From contig JASFAU010000019.1 of NCBI GenBank assembly GCA_039704465.1, forward strand, positions 496,001-560,000: a stretch of 64,000 nucleotides of DNA, given 5' to 3'. A program made the position numbers and the translations under genes. The stretch is from Plasmodiophora brassicae. Taxonomy: Eukaryota > Endomyxa > Phytomyxea > Plasmodiophorida > Plasmodiophoridae. Shown here piece after piece: positions 8,240-57,030 of the stretch (positions within the stretch are counted from its first letter, which is position 1; every line of letters starts with the position of its first letter). The notes beneath the pieces were generated by a model. That model was not told the DNA's origin. It saw only the letters and a program-made list of their open reading frames with translations, and did not search any database.

Positions 8240-8260
8240 CGGAGTCCGTCGCGGAGTCCG
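8240..8260 (+). promoter_or_regulatory. Two-half-site motif upstream of RPL10A
   Basis: Half-site CGGAGTCCG occurs twice, spaced by TCG, ending 40 bases before the RPL10A start codon. The same layout occurs upstream of NOP2 (14875-14895) and RRP6 (57010-57030). It is either a shared transcription-factor site or a 5' UTR element. Confidence 0.55.
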
Positions 8261-8300: not shown

Positions 8301-9353
8301 ATGAGGTTCGGGGATTGCCCTGGCAGGATTCTATTTGGCGTGTGCTGACCGTGTCGCAGTAAGCTGTCGAGCGAGACCGTTCGCGACAATGTTCGCAAGA
8401 TCTTGGCCGAGGCCGAGGCCAAGAAGCGCAAGTTCACGGAGACGATCGAGCTGCAGGTCGCCCTGAAGAACTACGACGCCGCTCGTGACAAGCGTATCGC
8501 TGGTATGTGCCGGTGTTTCAACGTCGTGTGTGTTTGATGAGAAAACGATTTGCCCTCCATCGGACACCGATTGTGGCGATTAAATCATGGATAATTCAGT
8601 TTCTGACGCGTTTCAGTTGATCATTCTCGCCATCATTTCGTTGGACGTGCTCTGATTTCCGTCGATCTTAGGTCAGGTCAAGCTCCCGTACGTCCCGAAG
8701 CCGAAATCGCGCGTCTGCATTCTCGGTGATGCTCGTGCCTGTGACCAGGCCAAGGAGAAGGGCCTCGAGTTCATGTCCGAAGAGGATTTGAACAAGTTCA
8801 ACCGTAACAAGAAGCTCGTCAAGGTACAGTACGTTCTGCACTGTCTTTCGCGTCTGTTCATGATGAGTTTCTTGCTGTGTCGCCCCAATCGGATATTCTT
8901 TGTCGAGACCAACAGCTCTGATTTCTTCCGAGTGCTTTTCGTTGACGCGCGTCTCTATCGTGTTCTAATACGTTGCTGTCGCAGAAACTCGCCCAGCGCT
9001 ACGACGCGTTCCTGGCCTCGCCAACGCTGATCAAGAAGATCCCTCGTTTATTGGGTCCCACCCTGAACAAGGTCGGCAAGTTCCCCGGTGTCCTGGCGCC
9101 CAACTCCGACCCCGCCGAGAAGGTCGCTGAGATCTCCTCGACGATCAAGTTCAACCTTCGTATCAAGAAGGATCGCCCGATGTGCATGGGTACCGCCGTC
9201 GCCAACGTCGGCATGTCCGAGGACGAGATCGTCATGAACGTCAACCTTGCCGTTAACTTCATGGTCTCCCTGCTGAAGAAGAAGTGGCACAACTGCAAGC
9301 GCCTCTACCTGAAGAGCACCATGGGCCCTGCCCACAAGATCTACGGTTTCTAA
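8301..9353 (+). CDS. RPL10A: Large ribosomal subunit protein uL1 (L10a)
   Basis: Exons 8301-8305, 8360-8502, 8672-8823 and 8985-9353. The first coding exon is only five bases (ATGAG), so the second codon is split by the intron. The spliced product of 222 residues matches eukaryotic L10a throughout: KFTETIELQVALKNYD, NKKLVKKLAQRYDAFLAS, IPRLLGPTLNKVGKFP, STIKF, LAVNFMVSLLKKKW and LYLKSTMGP. The protein binds the L1 stalk of the 60S subunit. Intron 1 is 54 nt, but introns 2 and 3 are 169 and 161 nt, far longer than nearly all others here, and each contains a box C/D-like layout (see the snoRNA candidates). The start is fixed by homology and by the splice phase. Confidence 0.95.
8534..8606 (+). 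ncRNA. Candidate box C/D snoRNA in RPL10A intron 2
   Basis: Inside the 169-nt intron 8503-8671, TTGATGA at 8534-8540 resembles a C box (one base off RTGATGA) and CTGA at 8603-8606 a D box, 73 nt from end to end. CGTG upstream and CGCG downstream could pair as a weak terminal stem. A second CTGA lies at 8652-8655. No rRNA target was identified. Confidence 0.35.
8860..8921 (+). ncRNA. Candidate box C/D snoRNA in RPL10A intron 3
   Basis: Inside the 161-nt intron 8824-8984, a perfect C box ATGATGA lies at 8860-8866 and a D box CTGA at 8918-8921, 62 nt in all. Ribosomal-protein introns are classic snoRNA hosts, and the unusual intron length fits. The guide would be the bases before the D box (GAGACCAACAGCT). 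The rRNA target is unknown and the terminal stem is weak. Confidence 0.45.
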
Positions 9354-13023: not shown

Positions 13024-14854
13024 TTACTGCTTCTTTTGTCGCTTGGCGGCGCTCATCGCTGACTGCTTGCGTGCCCTCCTGTCGATCGCGTGCTGGGCGC
13101 GTTTGCTCAGCTCCGGCGCATCGCCATCGGCTTCCGGGACCACTTCTGCCGCTGGCCCCTGCTGCTCGCCGCTCGTCGCCTTCTCGCCGACGAACACGCG
13201 GGCGCCGTTCTCCAGCTTCTGCAGCTTGGCGACGAAGAACCCGTCCATGTTGTGGACGTGCGGGTAGACGCGTTTCGTCAACTCCAGGCTCGGGTGGAAC
13301 GCGAACCGCCCGCCCATCTGCTTGAACCCGTTCCGGCCGACCTCGATCCCCTACATAAACGGGTCAGCCGTTATGTGGCCGCGACGCAGACCCACGTCGT
13401 TGCTACCGTTGGGCAGATCTTCACGAAGCGCTTGCCGAGCGCGTACTGGACGACGGCCTCGTTCTCCTCGACGGAGATGGAGCACGTCGAGTAGACGAGG
13501 TACCCGTTCGGTTTCAGCATGTCGATGGCGGCCAGGATCAGCTCCTTCTGCAGCTTGGCCGACTTCTCGATGTCCGCCGCCGTCCTGTTCAGCTTGATGG
13601 ATTCGTCCTTGGAGATGACGCCCAGGCCCGAGCAGGGCGCATCCAGCAGGACGCGATCGACACCGCCGAAATGCTGCGGCAACTTCCTGCCGTCAAAGTT
13701 GACGACGACGACGTTCTGCGCGCCAAGACGATGCACGTTGCCGATCGTGGCCTTGAGACGGTCCTTGTTGGCGTCGTTGGCGACGACGACGCCCGTGTTC
13801 TTCATCAGCGCCGAGATATACGTCGTCTTGCCACCGGGGGCGGAGCACATGTCAACGACGGTCTCGTTCTCCTTCGGGGCCAGTGCCATGACCGGGAGCA
13901 GCGAGGAAGCACTCTGAAGCATGTAATGCCCAGCGAGGTATTCGGGCGTGGCGGCGACAGGGACTTGACTGGACGAGATCGTCAGGCCGACTTTGCTCCA
14001 GTCGGCGAGCGGGTCCAGGTTCACGCCACGGTTGATCAGTGCCTGGGCCAGGTCGCGTCGTCGGGCCTTGAGCGTGTTGGCGCGAATGCACATGGGGCGT
14101 TGGGCGGCGTTCGCCTCCAGGAATTCGACGCATTCCGCCGGCGAGAACATCTCCAGGAACTTGCTGATCAGGTCGTCGTTGTACCCGTAGTACAGGCCCA
14201 GGTCCCGTTTCAGGTTGTCGATGTATTCCGCGCGTGACACACCGTCCTGTCGCTGGTTCTTCAGGTCTGCAAGGACGAACAGCACCTGAACAGCCATCAG
14301 AATTGTCTAATGTAAACGAGTTCGTTGCGTTCCGGTACCTGGTTGATTCGTTGTTTGAGGACAACGAGGTCGGGGGAAGGCAGCAGGTTCTCCTTGGCGA
14401 GGTCATCCGATGTAGGAAGCGCGTACGACTCCTGGGCGCCTGCGCTCAGGTTGGTTCGCAACTCGGCTTCGGCATCGTCGGCTTCCGCGCGTCGTTCGGC
14501 ATCGACTTCGCGCGCCTTGCCGACGAGCTCGTCGTCACTGCCCCCATCCGATCCACTCAGCCAGCTGCCGACATCATCGTTGTCCTCGTCGTCGTCGTCT
14601 TCGCCTGCGTCTGACCCCATCTCAACGTCGCTGTCTACAAACTCATCATCGTCATCGAACGACGACGCGCTCTGTTCCGAGTCGTCATCGGGTTCGCTTG
14701 AATCGGGGACGTTTCGCCCCGCGACAGCCGTTTTAGGAGCGGCTCGCTCTCGCTTACTAGCAGCAATACGAGCATTTGTCGGGCTGGCTTCCTGGTCAGA
14801 TTCCGAGCATTCTTCAAAGACCACTGCTGGACCGCGACGGAGCGGCTTCCCCAT
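13024..14854 (-). CDS. NOP2: NOP2/NSUN1 rRNA cytosine-5 methyltransferase
   Basis: Exons 14854-14339, 14285-13407 and 13350-13024, with introns of 53 and 56 nt. The 573-residue product has an acidic low-complexity N terminus (SSFDDDDEFVDSD). The NOP2 family core follows: YYGYNDDLISKFLEMFSPAE, RANTLK, VGLTISSSQVPVAATPEYL, the SAM-binding loop MCSAPGGKTTYI, DAPCSGLGVISKD and YSTCSISVEENE with the two catalytic cysteines, then FHPSLELTKRVYPHVHNMDG. It methylates 25S/28S rRNA in the nucleolus during 60S assembly. The C terminus is basic (KRAQHAIDRRARK). A two-half-site motif lies 20 bases upstream of the ATG. Confidence 0.95.
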
Positions 14855-14874: not shown

Positions 14875-14895
14875 CGGAGTCCGTGACGGACTCCG
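14875..14895 (-). promoter_or_regulatory. Two-half-site motif upstream of NOP2
   Basis: On the coding strand, CGGAGTCCG and CGGACTCCG are separated by TCA, making an inverted repeat with a 3-base spacer. It ends 20 bases before the NOP2 start codon. The same arrangement is at RPL10A and RRP6. Confidence 0.6.
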
Positions 14896-17682: not shown

Positions 17683-18697
17683 TTACGCTCCGGTGGCGAT
17701 GTCGAAAGGGAACTTCTCGGCGCCGGTGTTGTAGAACAGCCCAAAGTGCCTCTCGGTTTCCGCGGGTCCTTTCCAGGACTCGTCGAACGCCTCGAACAGG
17801 TACAGGTCCTGGACCTTGCTGGATGCCCTGGCGACACTGACGGCATGGCTGACGTACTGCCGAGCGTTGTCGATGGACGCGAGCGGCCCGCCTGCTGTCG
17901 GCCATCCAGTTTCCCCGACGATGATCGGGAGCGACCCGGGCGCACCGACTTTGCCCAAGGCGGCGCGGACGGCGTCCAGCACGTTCGACAGTATCGATGG
18001 ATTCGGGCCCCGACCCAGGGCCGGATCCAGCAGGGCGCCGTTACCGCCCAGAGCGAAAAACGGGTAGACGTTGATGCTGAACGCAGGAAGACTTGGCACG
18101 AATTGCTGGACGAGGTCGACAATCTCGGGATCGAAGATGGCGTTCTGAGGAGGATACGTGTTCGCTAGCGATGCCTCTAGACCAACCATTCAGGACGTCA
18201 ACGGCAAACCTTCAGGCGCCGATACATATCCGGTATGTCTGACCGCTTAAAGGGATGATGACCTTCGTGGCCAGTCCATTGCTGGAGACTAGCTGGCGCA
18301 CCTGATTGTATGCCGCGATCAGGTACGGACGTGTTTGAGCACGAGAGGCGGTATCGTGGAACGGCTCGTTGCTGATGGCGATCCAGCGCACCGTTCGGCG
18401 GCGCAGGGCTTGCACGATGACATTCTGGTACCCGGGGTCGCTGACAGCAGCGGCGAGGCGGTCGTTTGGGATCGCAATGGTGACTTCGACTGGGGCATTG
18501 GCGTAGACTCGTTCAACAGCGTCCAGAAACCCTGGGTCGAGGTTGAACGTCTTGATCAGCGACACGCCGTGGTTTCGAAGACGAAGTAGCTGTTCGTCAT
18601 ACGACAGCGCATCCGGAAACAGGCCAATGTCGACCCCGATACGTGCCTCGGCAACGACCACGATGAACAGAGACGTCGTCAACGCCAACCAATGCAT
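17683..18697 (-). CDS. Secreted GH17 glucan beta-1,3-glucosidase, no PAN tail
   Basis: Exons 18697-18244 and 18176-17683, with a 67-nt intron. The 315-residue product has a signal peptide (WLALTTSLFIVVVAEA) and a GH17 TIM barrel: IGVDIGLFPDALSYD, VTIAIPND, ISNEPF with the acid/base Glu, NVYPFF, and VGETGWPTAGG with the nucleophile Glu, then YLFEAFDESWKGPAETE. It ends soon after the barrel (FDIATGA). The close paralogue at 24460 continues into a Cys-rich PAN-type module that is missing here. The intron position is the same in both. Substrate is probably beta-1,3-glucan, outside the cell. Confidence 0.85.
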
Positions 18698-19391: not shown

Positions 19392-20501
19392 AAATCGCCG
19401 ACGGTCCGGGTGGTCAAGTTGTGGTCGTCCGAGGTCGTTGGTGAAGCTATTGCTCGCCGTGTCAACCCAAGACGAGGGTATCGCGCGATCGTGGAGAAGC
19501 ACGTCCGCAAATCCATTGCCAGTTTCATCGCCTCTGAGCGCGAACGGTAAGACGTGATACGGTGTCCAGACATTGCCTGATGCCTATATTGCTCATAACT
19601 TTATTGTAGCGGCCTCGTCGACGGTCAGCACCCGACTCTCGACTTGCTGAATGACCTTCAGCATCGATTGATACCACCGGAGTCCCTTGTTGACGAAAGA
19701 CGCCCTCTGGGGGAGGCCGTCTTTCATGGTGCAACAAGGGCCCACCCTAACCGTCCGTGTGCCTAAGTCGTTTTTGACGTCCATTATATCTAAGCGTAAA
19801 CGTCGTGCCTCAGAAGACACATTGTGACCTGTCGCGGGTCCTGGCCATTCACTTCAGCGACCAAAACATGGCCTTGAAGGTCTGGTTCATCTTTACGTAA
19901 GCTACTTTGGCTACAGCATGGTCCCTAATGCTGACAGTGCTGTCTGTAGAAATGACAGAGGCATGGCGGTCGAGTAAACACCAGACGCAGGCGCAATGTT
20001 CCCCGTACAGCGACAAGCTGGCCGACATGTTGAAAGCATGTCGCTTCCACGACGTGCAAAGACCCGGGGACGTTATCTACATGCCTCCCAGCATGATGCA
20101 TGCAGTGTATACTGCGTATGCACCTGGGACCCCTCCGGGCTAGCAGTTCTGCCTGGCGGGTGGTTACCTGTTCTGTACTGCACAGGACCCACCCTACATG
20201 GTTCGGTTTCATGGCGAATGTCCGCAATGCTGCCCTGAACGATGGAACGAACAGAAGCTGGCGTCGTACGTGCTGCCCATCGGCGCCCGAGATTTCACCG
20301 AGAACCGCCGACGGCACATGGCGAAAATCCTGTCCTGTGCTGAACCTTGGCCAGAGGTCGTTCAACAGGTGCAGAGGGAGGGCACGCGCCGCAATTTGTC
20401 TAGGGAGGTTTAATCAGGATAACATAGCATGTCTTAGAGGCCGATCATTCGACCATGCCGCGGCGAATTGACCGCAAGAACTCCTTTCTTTCGTGGTGCT
20501 T
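19392..20501. repeat. Left arm of 2.26-kb palindrome
   Basis: The arm begins at AAATCGCCGACGGTCC and ends at CGTGGTGCTT. It matches the reverse complement of 20528-21649 almost base for base, with a few substitutions, one 12-base difference and single-base indels. The spacer is 26 bases (20502-20527). Confidence 0.95.
19421..20413 (+). pseudogene. Partial JmjC-like gene copy (left arm)
   Basis: Reading exon pieces along the plus strand gives LWSSEVVGEAIARRV, an intron (GTAAGA..TTGTAG) to GLVDGQHPTLDLLND, then KTHCDLSRVLAIHFSDQN with an HxD motif, and GDVIYMPPSMMHAVY with a distal His. The C terminus is YVLPIGARDFTEN onward, ending at 20413. The 5' exons present in the right-hand copy are absent: homology stops inside the intron before LWSSEVV. 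In this copy the final exon stays in frame, whereas the right copy has a one-base deletion (GCCGACGGC here, GCCACGGC there). Several exon joins are tentative. Confidence 0.45.
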
Positions 20502-20527
20502 CCGTGCGGCGCGTGCCCTTCGGCCGT

Positions 20528-21649
20528 AAGCACCACGAAAGAAAGGAGTTCTTGCGGTCAATTCGCCGCGGCATGGTTGAAAGATCGGCCTCTAAGCCAT
20601 GCTATTTTATCCTGATTAAACCTCCCTAGACAAATTGCGGCGCGTGCCCTCCCTCTGCACCTGTTGAACGACCTCTGGCCAAGGTTCAGCACAGGACAGG
20701 ATTTTCGCCATGTGCCGTGGCGGTTCTCGGTGAAATCTCGGGCGCCGATGGGCAGCACGTACGACGCCAGCTTCTGTTCGTTCCATCGTTCAGGGCAGCA
20801 TTGCGGACGTTCGCCATGAAACCGAACCATGTAGGGTGGGTCCTGTGCAGTACAGAACAGGTAACCACCCGCCAGGCAGAACTGCTAGCCCGGAGGGGTC
20901 CCAGGTGCATACGCAGTATACACTGCATGCATCATGCTGGGAGGCATGTAGATAACGTCCCCGGGTCTTTGCACGACGCACAACACGTCGTGGAAGCGAC
21001 ATGCTTTCAACATGTCGGCCAGCTTGTCGCTGTACGGGGAACATTGCGCCTGCGTCTGGTGTTTACTCGACCGCCATGCCTCTGTCATTTCTACAGACAG
21101 CACTGTCAGCATTAGGGACCATGCTGTCGCCAAAGTAGCTTACGTAAAGATGAACCAGACCTTCAAGGCCATGTTTTGGCCGCTGAAGTGAATGGCCAGG
21201 ACCCGCGACAGGTCACAATGTGTCTTCTGAGGCACGACGTTTACGCTTAGATATAATGGACGTCAAAAACGACTTAGGCACACGGACGGTTAGGGTGGGC
21301 CCTTGTTGCACCATGAAAGACGGCCTCCCCCAGTGGGCGTCTTTCGTCAACAAGGGACTCCGGTGGTATCAATCGATGCTGAAAGTCATTCAGCAAGTCG
21401 AGAGTCGGGTGCTGACCGTCGACGAGGCCGCTACAATAAAGTTATGAGCAACATAGGCATCAGGCAATGTCTGGACACCGTATCACGTCTTACCGTTCGC
21501 GCTCAGAGGCGATGAAACTGTCAATGGATTTGCGGACGTGCTTCTCCACGATCGCGCGATACCCTCGTCTTGGGTTGGCACGGCGAACAATAGCTTCACC
21601 AACGACCTCGGACGACCACAACTTGACCACCCGGACCGTCGGCGATTTA
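20528..21649. repeat. Right arm of 2.26-kb palindrome
   Basis: Reverse complement of 19392-20501. Relative to the left arm it carries an extra 12 bases near 20985 and lacks one base near 20717. Beyond 21649 the two sides are unrelated: this side continues into the 5' exons of the JmjC-like gene. Confidence 0.95.
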
Positions 21650-24459: not shown

Positions 24460-25697
24460 ATGGGCGTACGTAACGGGCTGTCGCTGTGTCTGATCCTGGT
24501 GATCGCTGCTATTGGCGAGGCCCGTGTCGGGGTCGACATTGGCCTGTTTCCCGACGCTCTCTCGTACGACAGCCAGCTCCAGCGCCTTCGGAACCGCGGC
24601 GTCTCGTTGATCAAAACGTACAACATCGACTCCGGCTTCCTCGACGCCGTCGATCGTGTCTACGCCAAGGCTGCCGTCGAGATCACGGTCGCGATCCCGA
24701 ATGACCGTCTGTCTGCTGCTGCCTACGATCCTGGATACCAAGGTCTGATCGTCCAAGCCCTGCGTCGCCGAACCGTTCGCTCCATCGCCGTCAGCAACGA
24801 GCCGTTCAACGGCGCCGCCACGCGGGCCCAGACACGCCCGTACCTGATCCCGGCCTATAACAAGGTCCGCCAGCTGGTCTCGAGCAACGGCCTGAGCACG
24901 AAGGTTATCGTTCCGCTGAGCGGTCAGTCGGTTCCGACAGCCCCTGGTCGTTGCCCTCATTCCTGTGTGATCTAGAGGCCAGCCTGCAGAACACGTATCC
25001 TCCACAGAACGCCAACTTCGACCCCGAAATTGTCGACCTTGTTCGGCAATTCGTCCCGAGCGTTCCTGAGTTCAGCATCAACGTGTATCCGTACTTCGCG
25101 CTCGTCTACAGTGGCAACAACGCTCTGGCGGATCCGGCCCTGGGTCGAGGTCCGAACCCATCGATTCTGTCGAACGTGATTGACGCCGTTCGGGCCGCCC
25201 TGAACAAGATCGGAGCGCCAGGCTCCCTCCCAATCATCGTCGGCGAAACAGGTTGGCCAACGACTGGCGGTTCCTACGCGTCCGTCGACAACGCGCAGCA
25301 GTACACGAGCACGGCTGTGACCTTCGCCAGGACATCCGGCAAGGTAAAGGACCTGTACCTATTCGAGGCGTTCGACGAATCGTGGAAGGGGCCCGCGGAG
25401 ACGGAGAAACACTTCGGGCTATTCGTCAACACCGGGACGGAGAAGTTCTCGTTCGACGTCGACACTGACAGCGCGCACCCGTGCTCGGTCTGGGGCTGGC
25501 GCTACTATGACTACGTGGACCTGTTCGGCGGCGATCTCACAACCAAGCCGGCCAGCAACCGCAACGATTGTCAGCCGCTATGCGGGCAGACCCCGGGATG
25601 CATCGGATACGCGTTCGCCTGGAACACCTGCTACCTCAAGAGCACCATCGGCAGTATCGTCCCGAACGGAAACGTGTACTCCGCGGTGCTTTGCTGA
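24460..25697 (+). CDS. Secreted GH17 glucanase with C-terminal PAN/Apple-like module
   Basis: Exons 24460-24922 and 24976-25697, with a 53-nt intron. The 394 residues comprise a signal peptide (LSLCLILVIAAIGEA) and a GH17 barrel: VGVDIGLFPDALSYD, VSNEPF with the acid/base Glu, INVYPYFA, VGETGWPTTGG with the nucleophile Glu, and LFEAFDESWKGPAE. After the barrel come VWGWRYYDYVDLFGGD and a Cys-rich module (CQPLCGQTPGCIGYAFAWNTCYLKS) typical of PAN/Apple-like adhesion domains. This is an enzyme plus binding-module fusion; the paralogue at 17683 lacks the module. It probably acts on beta-1,3-glucan in a cell wall. Confidence 0.88.
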
Positions 25698-54656: not shown

Positions 54657-56987
54657 TCACCGCCGACCTTTACCACGATGGCGGGCGCCGTTCCGCTGCC
54701 TGGGCTTCGCGCCGCCGTACGGGTCGAAGACCGGCGGGGCCGGCTTAGCGGGCGCGTCGTCGTGGACGGGCGCCGCCGACCCGTAGTCGAACGGGACGAA
54801 CGCGACCGGGTCGCTCTGGGCACCCCCGTTCCGACGCCGTTTCGCCGCGTTGCCCTGGGCCGACGCCGGTTTCCTCTTCTCCCGCCCGCGGATCTCGTTC
54901 AACGATGGCGGGAGCGGCGCGTCGTCGTCGTCGTCGTCGTCGTCGGCATTGACAGACGGTTCGGGTTCCGATGGTGGGGACGCCGGCAGGTCGTCTTCGG
55001 GTGCCGCCGGGGACGTCTCAGCGTCGGGAGCGGCTTCGTCCGCAGGCGTTGCCGATGGCACCGCTGGTGGTGGTGGCCGCAGTTGGATCTCGTTGAGGAT
55101 CGCCTTGGCCCGCCGTTCCGCATCGGCATCGCTGTCGTCGTCGTCGTCCGACGACGACGAGCAGTCGAACATCCGGCTGGCGCTCTTCTCAGCGATCACA
55201 ACGGACGACGTCGTCGTCGTCGTCGTCTGCTGCTGCGCCAGACACAGGACAGGGACATCCGCCTTGTCCACAGGTACCGTCGCGGGCGAGAACGCGACCA
55301 CGACCGTGGACGTCGTCGTCGACGTCACCCGCTCGGCGAACGCCTCGGCAGCCGGCGTTGGCAGGTCCCTGGCATCGGCGATGACGCGCAGGAAGTCTTG
55401 GATCCGCTTGCGAACGGGGGCGGACAGGCCCGGGTAGATCGACAGCAGGGCGCGCTCTGTCGACGGGCAACGACGCGCGATGTTCATCATGGCGGCCGCT
55501 GGCAGGACGTACCCGCAGGACTCGTCGAGGTCGCGCGCCAGCGCGTCCCTCCATCGGTACAGCGCGCCGAGCACGTTCGCCTGCTGGCCGGACAGCGACA
55601 CGTCGAACTGCCTCAGCATCTTCAGGTGCGACGTCGCGTCGCAGACCGGCTTCGCGTACGTCTTCAGGCACAGGGCCCGGCTGCGCGCGAGCACGTCCTC
55701 GATGCCGTCCGGCGACCGGTTGCACAGCTGGTTGCGAAGGCGGTCGTAGATGTAGAGCAGGAAGTGTGTGTCGGCCCGGGCGTACTTGATCATGGCCGGG
55801 GGCACCGGCCGGATGCGCCAGTCGGCCATCTGGTACGCTTTGTCGGCCTTCACGTCGCAGTACACCTCCAGCAGGTACTTCAGCGAGAACGAGGGCAGCT
55901 CCAGGACGCGGGACGCCTGGCCCGTGTCGAACATGTTGACCAGGTACAGGGAGAAGTCCTTCTGCAGCCACTCGACGTCCATGTCGGCGCCGTGCAGGAC
56001 CTTGACGATCGCCGGATTCGTGAACGGGTCCAGCAGGCGATGCATGTGCGGGCGCAGGGCGAGCGTGTCGACAATGTAGTCGGCGGAGCGTGTCGAGATT
56101 TGCATCAGGCAGGTGAACCCGAGGTACGAATGGAAGCTGGTCATCGCAGACGGACCCAGTCAGCCTAATGGGGAGGGCGTCACAACGCAGGCCACGCACC
56201 TGTGGTGTTCGAGATCGATTGCGAATTCGGAAACGCCGTTCAGCGCCTCGACGAGTTCGCCGAGTTGCGACTCGTCGTCGATAAGGGTCAGCGGCGTGTC
56301 CTCCATGGACCTGAACAATTGTTCGGCACAAGGGCCGAGCTGGGCATCGAGGTACTCGAAGCCCATGATCTCCAGATGGTAGGGGTTGGCCGACGACGGC
56401 GTGCCCTGGCTGGTGCTGACACCCAGCCCTTCGATGTGGGACCGTAGGCAGGACGGGAGCTGGGGGGACGGGCAGGCCAGATCGCGGCCGAGCAGCTGAT
56501 TGGGCCTCGGGTTCGGCAACTTCGGGACCCATGGCCGATCCGGGCTGTTGTCGACTGGGTCGGCGAATTTCGACTGAGGACGCCCGCGCAACGACTGCCG
56601 AGCGTGGTTCCCAGCCGACAAGGTGCTGACGGCGACGTCCGGCGCTTCTTTGGGCGCACGCGCCTTGTCCAGCGCTTCGTCAACGTGCTCCAGCGCCATA
56701 TCGGTCGCCTCCACCGCGCAGGCGAACCGCTCCGCATCCGAGGACGACGACGGGAATTCGTTGGAGGGGTCCACGAGGCGGATGACCTTCCCCAGCGACC
56801 GCAGAATGCGGCTCTGCAGCACCGACAGACGATCCCGGAACGCCGGATTCGTCTGGTAATACAGATATTCGGCGCCGGACGGCAGGCGATTGCTGCGGCC
56901 AACGGCGTCCCCGAATCGCGTCAGGGCGTCGTTCATGAACGCCAGCCATTCGTCCGGCTGCGTCCCGGTAGTGGTGGTGGTCGTCAT
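54657..56987 (-). CDS. RRP6: Nuclear exosome 3'-5' exoribonuclease RRP6
   Basis: Exons 56987-56200 and 56136-54657, with a 63-nt intron that interrupts the first catalytic motif; 755 residues. N-terminal PMC2NT-type region (GAEYLYYQTNPAFRDRLSVL). The DEDD-Y exonuclease core is EFAIDLEHHS (Asp, Glu), LGFTCLMQISTR, VLHGADMDVEWLQKDF (Asp), and YARADTHFLLYIYD (Tyr, Asp). An HRDC domain follows (LYRWRDALARDLDESCGYVLPAAAM), then a long acidic and basic tail ending RNGARHRGKGRR. It trims 5.8S rRNA, snoRNAs and aberrant transcripts as part of the nuclear exosome. A two-half-site motif sits 22 bases upstream of the ATG. Confidence 0.95.
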
Positions 56988-57009: not shown

Positions 57010-57030
57010 CAGAGTCCGTGGCGGACTCCG
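57010..57030 (-). promoter_or_regulatory. Two-half-site motif upstream of RRP6
   Basis: On the coding strand, CGGAGTCCG and CGGACTCTG are separated by CCA, 22 bases before the RRP6 ATG. It is the third instance of the layout found at RPL10A and NOP2. Confidence 0.6.

Follow-up and report, generated by a model that had tools for sequence, protein, structure and literature searches.

A paired sequence element that lies a short distance upstream of the start codon very probably serves the genes of a ribosome-biogenesis regulon as their common cis-regulatory site in the plasmodiophorid Plasmodiophora brassicae (Rhizaria); judged from sequence, it is most likely a DNA-bound, start-proximal regulon element. 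It was initially seen in the window, by which we mean the whole analysed stretch of 64,000 nucleotides (62% GC), where an initial annotation had described two 9-base half-sites with a 3-base spacer ahead of three genes. Direct reading of the sequence confirmed the three copies, which are given here with the genes that they precede.

8240-8260, forward strand: paired element, direct form, CGGAGTCCG-TCG-CGGAGTCCG, 40 nt 5' of the RPL10A ATG
14875-14895, reverse strand: paired element, inverted form, CGGAGTCCG-TGA-CGGACTCCG, 20 nt 5' of the NOP2 ATG (14854-14852)
57010-57030, reverse strand: paired element with one mismatch, CAGAGTCCG-TGG-CGGACTCCG, 22 nt 5' of the RRP6 ATG (56987-56985)
8301-9350, forward strand: RPL10A (uL1), exons to at least 9350; Ribosomal_L1 PF00687, E 3e-25
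8301-8305, forward strand: exon 1 of RPL10A (ATGAG), followed by a short GT-AG intron, with exon 2 from 8360; splice judged by eye
13371-14854, reverse strand: NOP2 (rRNA m5C methyltransferase), PF01189, E 4e-64; more exons may lie below 13371
55080-56987, reverse strand: RRP6/EXOSC10, DNA_pol_A_exo1 and HRDC domains

All three distances agree with the 20-40 bases that had been claimed, and the domain matches uphold the three gene identities; a search of the RRP6 fragment against the protein database gave no match and is uninformative. Each half-site is a 9-bp near-palindrome, so that the window copies vary only in the central S and in one base. With up to three mismatches to the pattern allowed, the window holds the three sites and one three-mismatch place (58503), and the number of matches observed (7) was reached in none of 100 shuffles. 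When spacers of 0-15 were permitted, matches with up to two mismatches were found at the RPL10A, NOP2 and RRP6 sites only. Copies with at most one mismatch numbered 3 in the window, and none was seen in Markov resamples totalling 2.56 Mb. Single half-sites with at most one mismatch showed no excess in the window (71 observed vs 103 expected), and hence it is the pairing that matters; the weak half-sites reported before the zinc-finger and ACP genes are indeed present, as single one-mismatch half-sites (51722 and 61186), and prove nothing alone. Elsewhere in the window, an inverted repeat (19392-21648) has arms 96.5% identical on opposite strands and is flanked by two GH17-type genes (17693-18654 and 24512-25465), which are 76% identical and in mirrored orientation.

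P. brassicae e3 has been assembled into 20 nuclear contigs and one mitochondrial contig, 25.1 Mb in all, with TTTTAGGG telomeres, and the main text of the published genome paper does not contain the word 'promoter' (PMC6823432). The genome scanned here amounted to 25.3 Mb in 21 contigs, with three exact units of the T4AG3 telomere repeat matching once, at the end of contig C3. The exact pattern CGGASTCCG-N3-CGGASTCCG occurs at 70 places, compared with approximately 0.01 expected from the base composition of the window. Equal frequency at random places or at unrelated genes, which the initial annotation had named as the result that would count against a regulon, was looked for in part and was not observed, the reversed pattern having no genomic match at all. 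When one mismatch to the direct form is tolerated, the genome gives 139 strand matches (control, 0), and from the match counts we derive some 125 places with at most one mismatch to the direct or the S-variant form in 25 Mb.

The surrounding DNA could be read for 54 of the 70 exact copies, namely 53 sites in L001-L065, with the NOP2 site of the window as L044, and the RPL10A site. Coding segments were called with a codon-usage scorer trained for this work and identified by Pfam or PDB sequence search. A tool-supported ribosome-synthesis gene reads away from the site at 30 of the 54, a count helped by the fact that at several sites with coding segments on either side both were inspected and the better one was taken. 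These genes are RCL1, RRP9, bystin, UTP10, KRR1, RRP12, an L1-family protein, NMD3, NLE1/RSA4, IMP4, NOC4, BMS1, ESF1, UTP22/Nrap, TGS1, NOC1/MAK21, eIF6, PNO1, an exosome-type RNase-PH protein, NAT10, FCF1, NOP2, AATF, UTP20, RPA49, RPB12 (common to Pol I, II and III), MYBBP1A, LSG1, PRMT3 and RPL10A, with the choice among paralogues made in some cases by our own judgement (KH_KRR1_1st as PNO1, CBF as NOC1 or NOC4, and Brix as IMP4). Assembly factors, snoRNP genes and polymerase genes make up most of them, and RPL10A is the sole ribosomal protein. The nearest named relative of the bystin is from Spongospora subterranea (77% identity), and the first exon found of TGS1 lies 566 bp from its site. 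At several of the 30 sites an unrelated second gene stands on the opposite side, namely an FMN dehydrogenase (L009), Snf7 (L031) and mitochondrial bL25 (L045). A further 12 sites have other families only (TPR twice, FKBP-nucleoplasmin with WD40, Sina RING, NUDIX, MYCBPAP, TRM6, DEAD helicase, AAA ATPase, ankyrin, RanBP1 and LRR), and the remaining 12 have no identifiable gene.

The background comprised 28 segments of the window, of which 15 matched a family, and 9 neighbouring ones, of which 4 did so; ribosome-synthesis genes were found in none of these 37. One neighbour (L037:2186-2490, with its segment 2186-2380) resembles an LSG1-type GTPase by eye, with no tool match above the cut-off and one below it for the adjoining piece. 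The difference, 30/54 vs 0/37, is significant by Fisher's test (p = 1e-9), as it is when the count is limited to those with an assigned family (30/42 vs 0/19, p = 5e-8), both values being inflated by the larger number of tools with which the site genes were searched; restriction to Pfam-named genes gave 24/42 vs 0/19 (p = 6e-6). The proposal that the motif is an element of a ribosome-biogenesis regulon is thus supported by this contrast.

The association was also approached from the side of the gene families. The Brix family was picked first, and the element was found upstream of all five Brix genes detected in the genome. The copies found in these promoters and in those of L7Ae/Nop ribosome genes, whose names are our interpretation of the translations, were as follows.

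Brix, IMP4: exact copy
Brix, C10: one mismatch, the copy lying 184 bp upstream of the domain
Brix, C8: one mismatch
Brix, C9: two mismatches
Brix, C1: exact half-sites at spacer 12, lying 417 bp upstream of the domain
RPS12: two mismatches at spacer 3
SNU13, NOP56 and NOP58: three mismatches each at spacer 3
RPL30: four mismatches at spacer 3; a spacer-12 pair with two
NHP2: five mismatches at spacer 3; a spacer-1 pair with one

A copy with at most three mismatches is therefore present in 4/6 of the L7Ae/Nop ribosome genes, the test having been made without RPL7A (L071) and without the weakest L7Ae match (C2); ribosomal proteins among the promoters tested were few (RPS12 and RPL30). At spacer 3 and up to three mismatches, 6/8 ribosome-gene promoters (including Brix C8 and C9) and 1/7 controls carried the element (Fisher p = 0.03). 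The promoter stretches were 401-701 bp long, and random 481-bp pieces of the window yielded 0/2897 such copies. In the seven family-first and control copies the first ATG lies 38-106 nt past the element. None of the 6 proteasome promoters examined, a subset of the proteasome genes found, had a copy with three or fewer mismatches. The one control that did carry a copy was a gene chosen beforehand as a negative, a splicing factor that we judge to be PRP31-like (L075, C2:1181200-1181800), with a two-mismatch copy upstream. Either the regulon extends beyond ribosomes or this control was badly chosen; the copy hints that some other nuclear RNA or growth genes are taken in. TRM6 and RanBP1 are further members outside ribosome biogenesis.

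These data bear on the idea that the motif is a general core-promoter element, noticed at ribosome genes because such genes are easily recognised. Its tight position near the ATG, its occurrence at some non-ribosomal genes, PRP31 among them, and the tendency of annotation to favour conserved proteins would all suit that explanation, but the approximately 125 genomic places are too few for it, the six proteasome promoters examined lack the element, and in the window no further place comes within two mismatches and none of the 28 other segments is ribosomal. We regard it as very unlikely.

The anatomy of the element is more informative on its mode of action. Exact half-site pairs with spacers of 0-30 number 95, a few having a half-site in common; 70 pairs have a spacer of 3, 8 have spacers of 0, 2 and 4, 16 have 10-15, one has 18, and the others none. 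The corresponding centre-to-centre distances, 9-13 and 19-24 bp, are about one and two helical turns. Of the 25 pairs whose spacer is not 3, a single one lies outside these ranges, which leave two thirds of the possible spacers uncovered (p = 6e-11, or 5e-10 without two likely duplicates, both with ranges picked post hoc). The exact copies with spacer 3 comprise 56 of the direct, 9 of the inverted and 5 of the divergent centre type, a marked preference for direct repeats (p = 4e-7).

Orientation and ATG statistics were drawn from 46 of the 54 readable sites, with L001, L002, L003, L024, L030, L039, L059 and L063 excluded as having no one clear gene. The gene-oriented consensus of these 46 with its flanks is YYR-CGGAGTCCG-YSR-CGGAGTCCG-YRR, i.e. 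two 9-bp dyads with a 12-bp period; conservation of the flanks stops approximately 4 bp out, and the information is at background level 5 bp outside. On the coding strand the centres read GG at 30 sites, GC at 8, CC at 7 and CG at 1, so that the centre base of the dyad is strand-biased, being G in 69/92 half-sites (p = 2e-6). The first ATG on the gene side is mostly 8-51 nt downstream of the element (median 29 nt; within 51 nt at 43/46), whereas on the opposite side the median distance is 52.5 nt (p = 3e-4, gene sides having been assigned by hand from coding segments). In several genes the distance is only 8-15 nt, and the element must therefore overlap or flank the transcription start or be transcribed.

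The last of these options admits a role in the mRNA, where a hairpin or a single-strand protein site in the transcribed 5'-UTR would co-regulate the translation or stability of the ribosome-synthesis mRNAs by a TOP-like logic. A site often 8-20 nt from the first ATG may well sit in the leader, the centre base is strand-biased, and with the one spacer tried a hairpin of 8-9 bp forms on folding whichever of the four pairs of centres is used. Nevertheless, centres that make a perfect hairpin (G/C or C/G) occur in just 14 of the 70 copies despite their better folding (-15.1 vs -11.5 and -8.9 kcal/mol), and the favoured direct repeats are the weaker ones as RNA hairpins. Grouping of the spacers at one and two turns is a property of the double helix, and each half is already a dyad. 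The RNA hairpin is thus disfavoured by the scarcity of perfect-hairpin centres and by the helical spacing, and we consider an RNA role unlikely, keeping some weight on it because the site is possibly transcribed. The strand bias is equally compatible with a directional site in DNA and with one in RNA.

Two further features of the copies deserve mention. At L059:701-769 and L063:701-733 there are runs of six and three half-sites, respectively (at most one mismatch each), with a strict 12-bp period, which suggests array forms of the element. Among the matches listed, identical variants occur at two places each (C11:1155641 and C11:1179874; C15:705686 and C16:647595; C6:282733 and C6:287636), and these pairs are likely segmental duplications.

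One might ask whether the element is a dispersed repeat, a tandem repeat or a coding artefact, its 12-bp period reading as ..ESVAES.. peptides. The longer runs at L059 and L063, the position of the site in an open frame at some loci and the few variants that are identical at two places would be expected on this account; against it stand the loss of flank conservation at approximately 4 bp, a random frame of the ATG, and genes that are functionally coherent and spread over many contigs. A coding peptide was ruled out by the frame of the ATG relative to the site (16/14/13 among the 43/46 sites with an ATG within 60 nt) and by the unconserved flanks, and a mobile repeat by flanks that are unrelated between sites. 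The artefact account is refuted at most of the readable sites, and the chance that it holds appears negligible.

The build from two dyads, their phasing with the helix and the predominance of direct repeats speak instead for a protein on double-stranded DNA, which probably binds as a phased pair close to the transcription start. A sequence-specific DNA-binding protein would recognise the CGG-AST-CCG dyad, with the two phased half-sites bound cooperatively on one face of the DNA, and binding would take place at the transcription start or slightly 5' of it. The genes bearing the site may then be switched together with growth, for example at spore germination or during plasmodial growth.

With regard to the binding factor, Zn2Cys6 (Gal4-type) proteins prefer CGG, and CGG-AST-CCG resembles their dyad sites in being an inverted CGG pair; we know of no classical Zn2Cys6 arrangement in the form of a 12-bp tandem of two dyads. 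The genome has 31 matches to Zn_clus (PF00172) above the cut-off (best E 9.5e-7), and at seven loci two such domains stand some 45-65 residues apart in one open frame:

C10:659639-659878, paired Zn_clus domains
C10:661227-661457, paired Zn_clus domains
C6:625835-626083, paired Zn_clus domains
C6:1357925-1358185, paired Zn_clus domains
C19:63751-64038, paired Zn_clus domains
C18:616262-616498, paired Zn_clus domains
C18:233490-233732, paired Zn_clus domains

These frames are candidate double zinc-cluster DNA-binding proteins, and the matches, the seven paired loci and the general preference for CGG make them only a lead to the factor. As a speculation with a rather small chance of being correct as a whole, a rhizarian lineage may have evolved its own ribosome-biogenesis regulon independently. 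In it, the two CGG-AST-CCG dyads, in phase with the helix and located at the transcription start, would be recognised by a protein that has two DNA-binding domains of zinc-cluster-like type, or else by a dimer of dimers. About a hundred genes, as an order of magnitude, would thereby share a single growth switch, unrelated in sequence to the fungal and animal systems.

P. brassicae is a crop parasite and is hard to culture outside its host. The element would mark growth control in this parasite, is short and unambiguous enough to serve for the isolation of its binding factor, and hints at the functions of the unnamed genes that bear it. No ribosome-gene promoter element of this kind in protists, Plasmodiophora or Rhizaria was found in the open-access literature, judged by title and start of abstract among the matches listed.

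The role of the element had been likened to that of yeast PAC/RRPE, with a different sequence, and this comparison is supported. In the 46 site-bearing promoters the PAC core (GATGAG) is not enriched (6/46, shuffle mean 8.2) and RRPE (AAAWTTTT) is absent (0/46); likewise, CACGTG within 400 bp is not enriched (6/46, shuffle mean 9.1), nor are TOP-like and telobox motifs, and TATAWA is mildly enriched (10/46 vs 3.2). The factors of PAC and RRPE in yeast are Dot6/Tod6 and Stb3. The likeness to that system lies in short upstream elements at nearly the same set of genes (rRNA processing, assembly and Pol I), whereas here one dyad, different in sequence, recurs with a 12-bp period a short way upstream of the ATG. 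The yeast ribosome-biogenesis regulon is described as having short upstream PAC and RRPE elements, and paired modules have also been described in fungi (PMC2570694; PMC3612091). In Holozoa, the E(CG) box (CACGTG) of Myc:Max is reported as the core-promoter signature of ribosome biogenesis, only in Myc-bearing Holozoa (Brown et al. 2008, PMC2570694), and BYSL, RCL1, RRP9, RRP12, IMP4, NAT10, NLE1, PNO1, MYBBP1A, UTP20, PRMT3, ESF1 and BMS1 appear both in Table 1 of that work and among the genes at our sites. The P. brassicae element is similar in being a single recognisable element near the start site and enriched at ribosome-biogenesis genes, and differs in that the promoters bearing it are not enriched in CACGTG. 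It probably functions like the yeast and holozoan regulon motifs, without any defining sequence feature in common with them. How eukaryotes co-ordinate their ribosome-assembly genes is known chiefly from fungi and animals, in which the motifs used are unrelated (PMC2570694), and a rhizarian element would add a further independent point at which the regulon has been conserved and its switch replaced.
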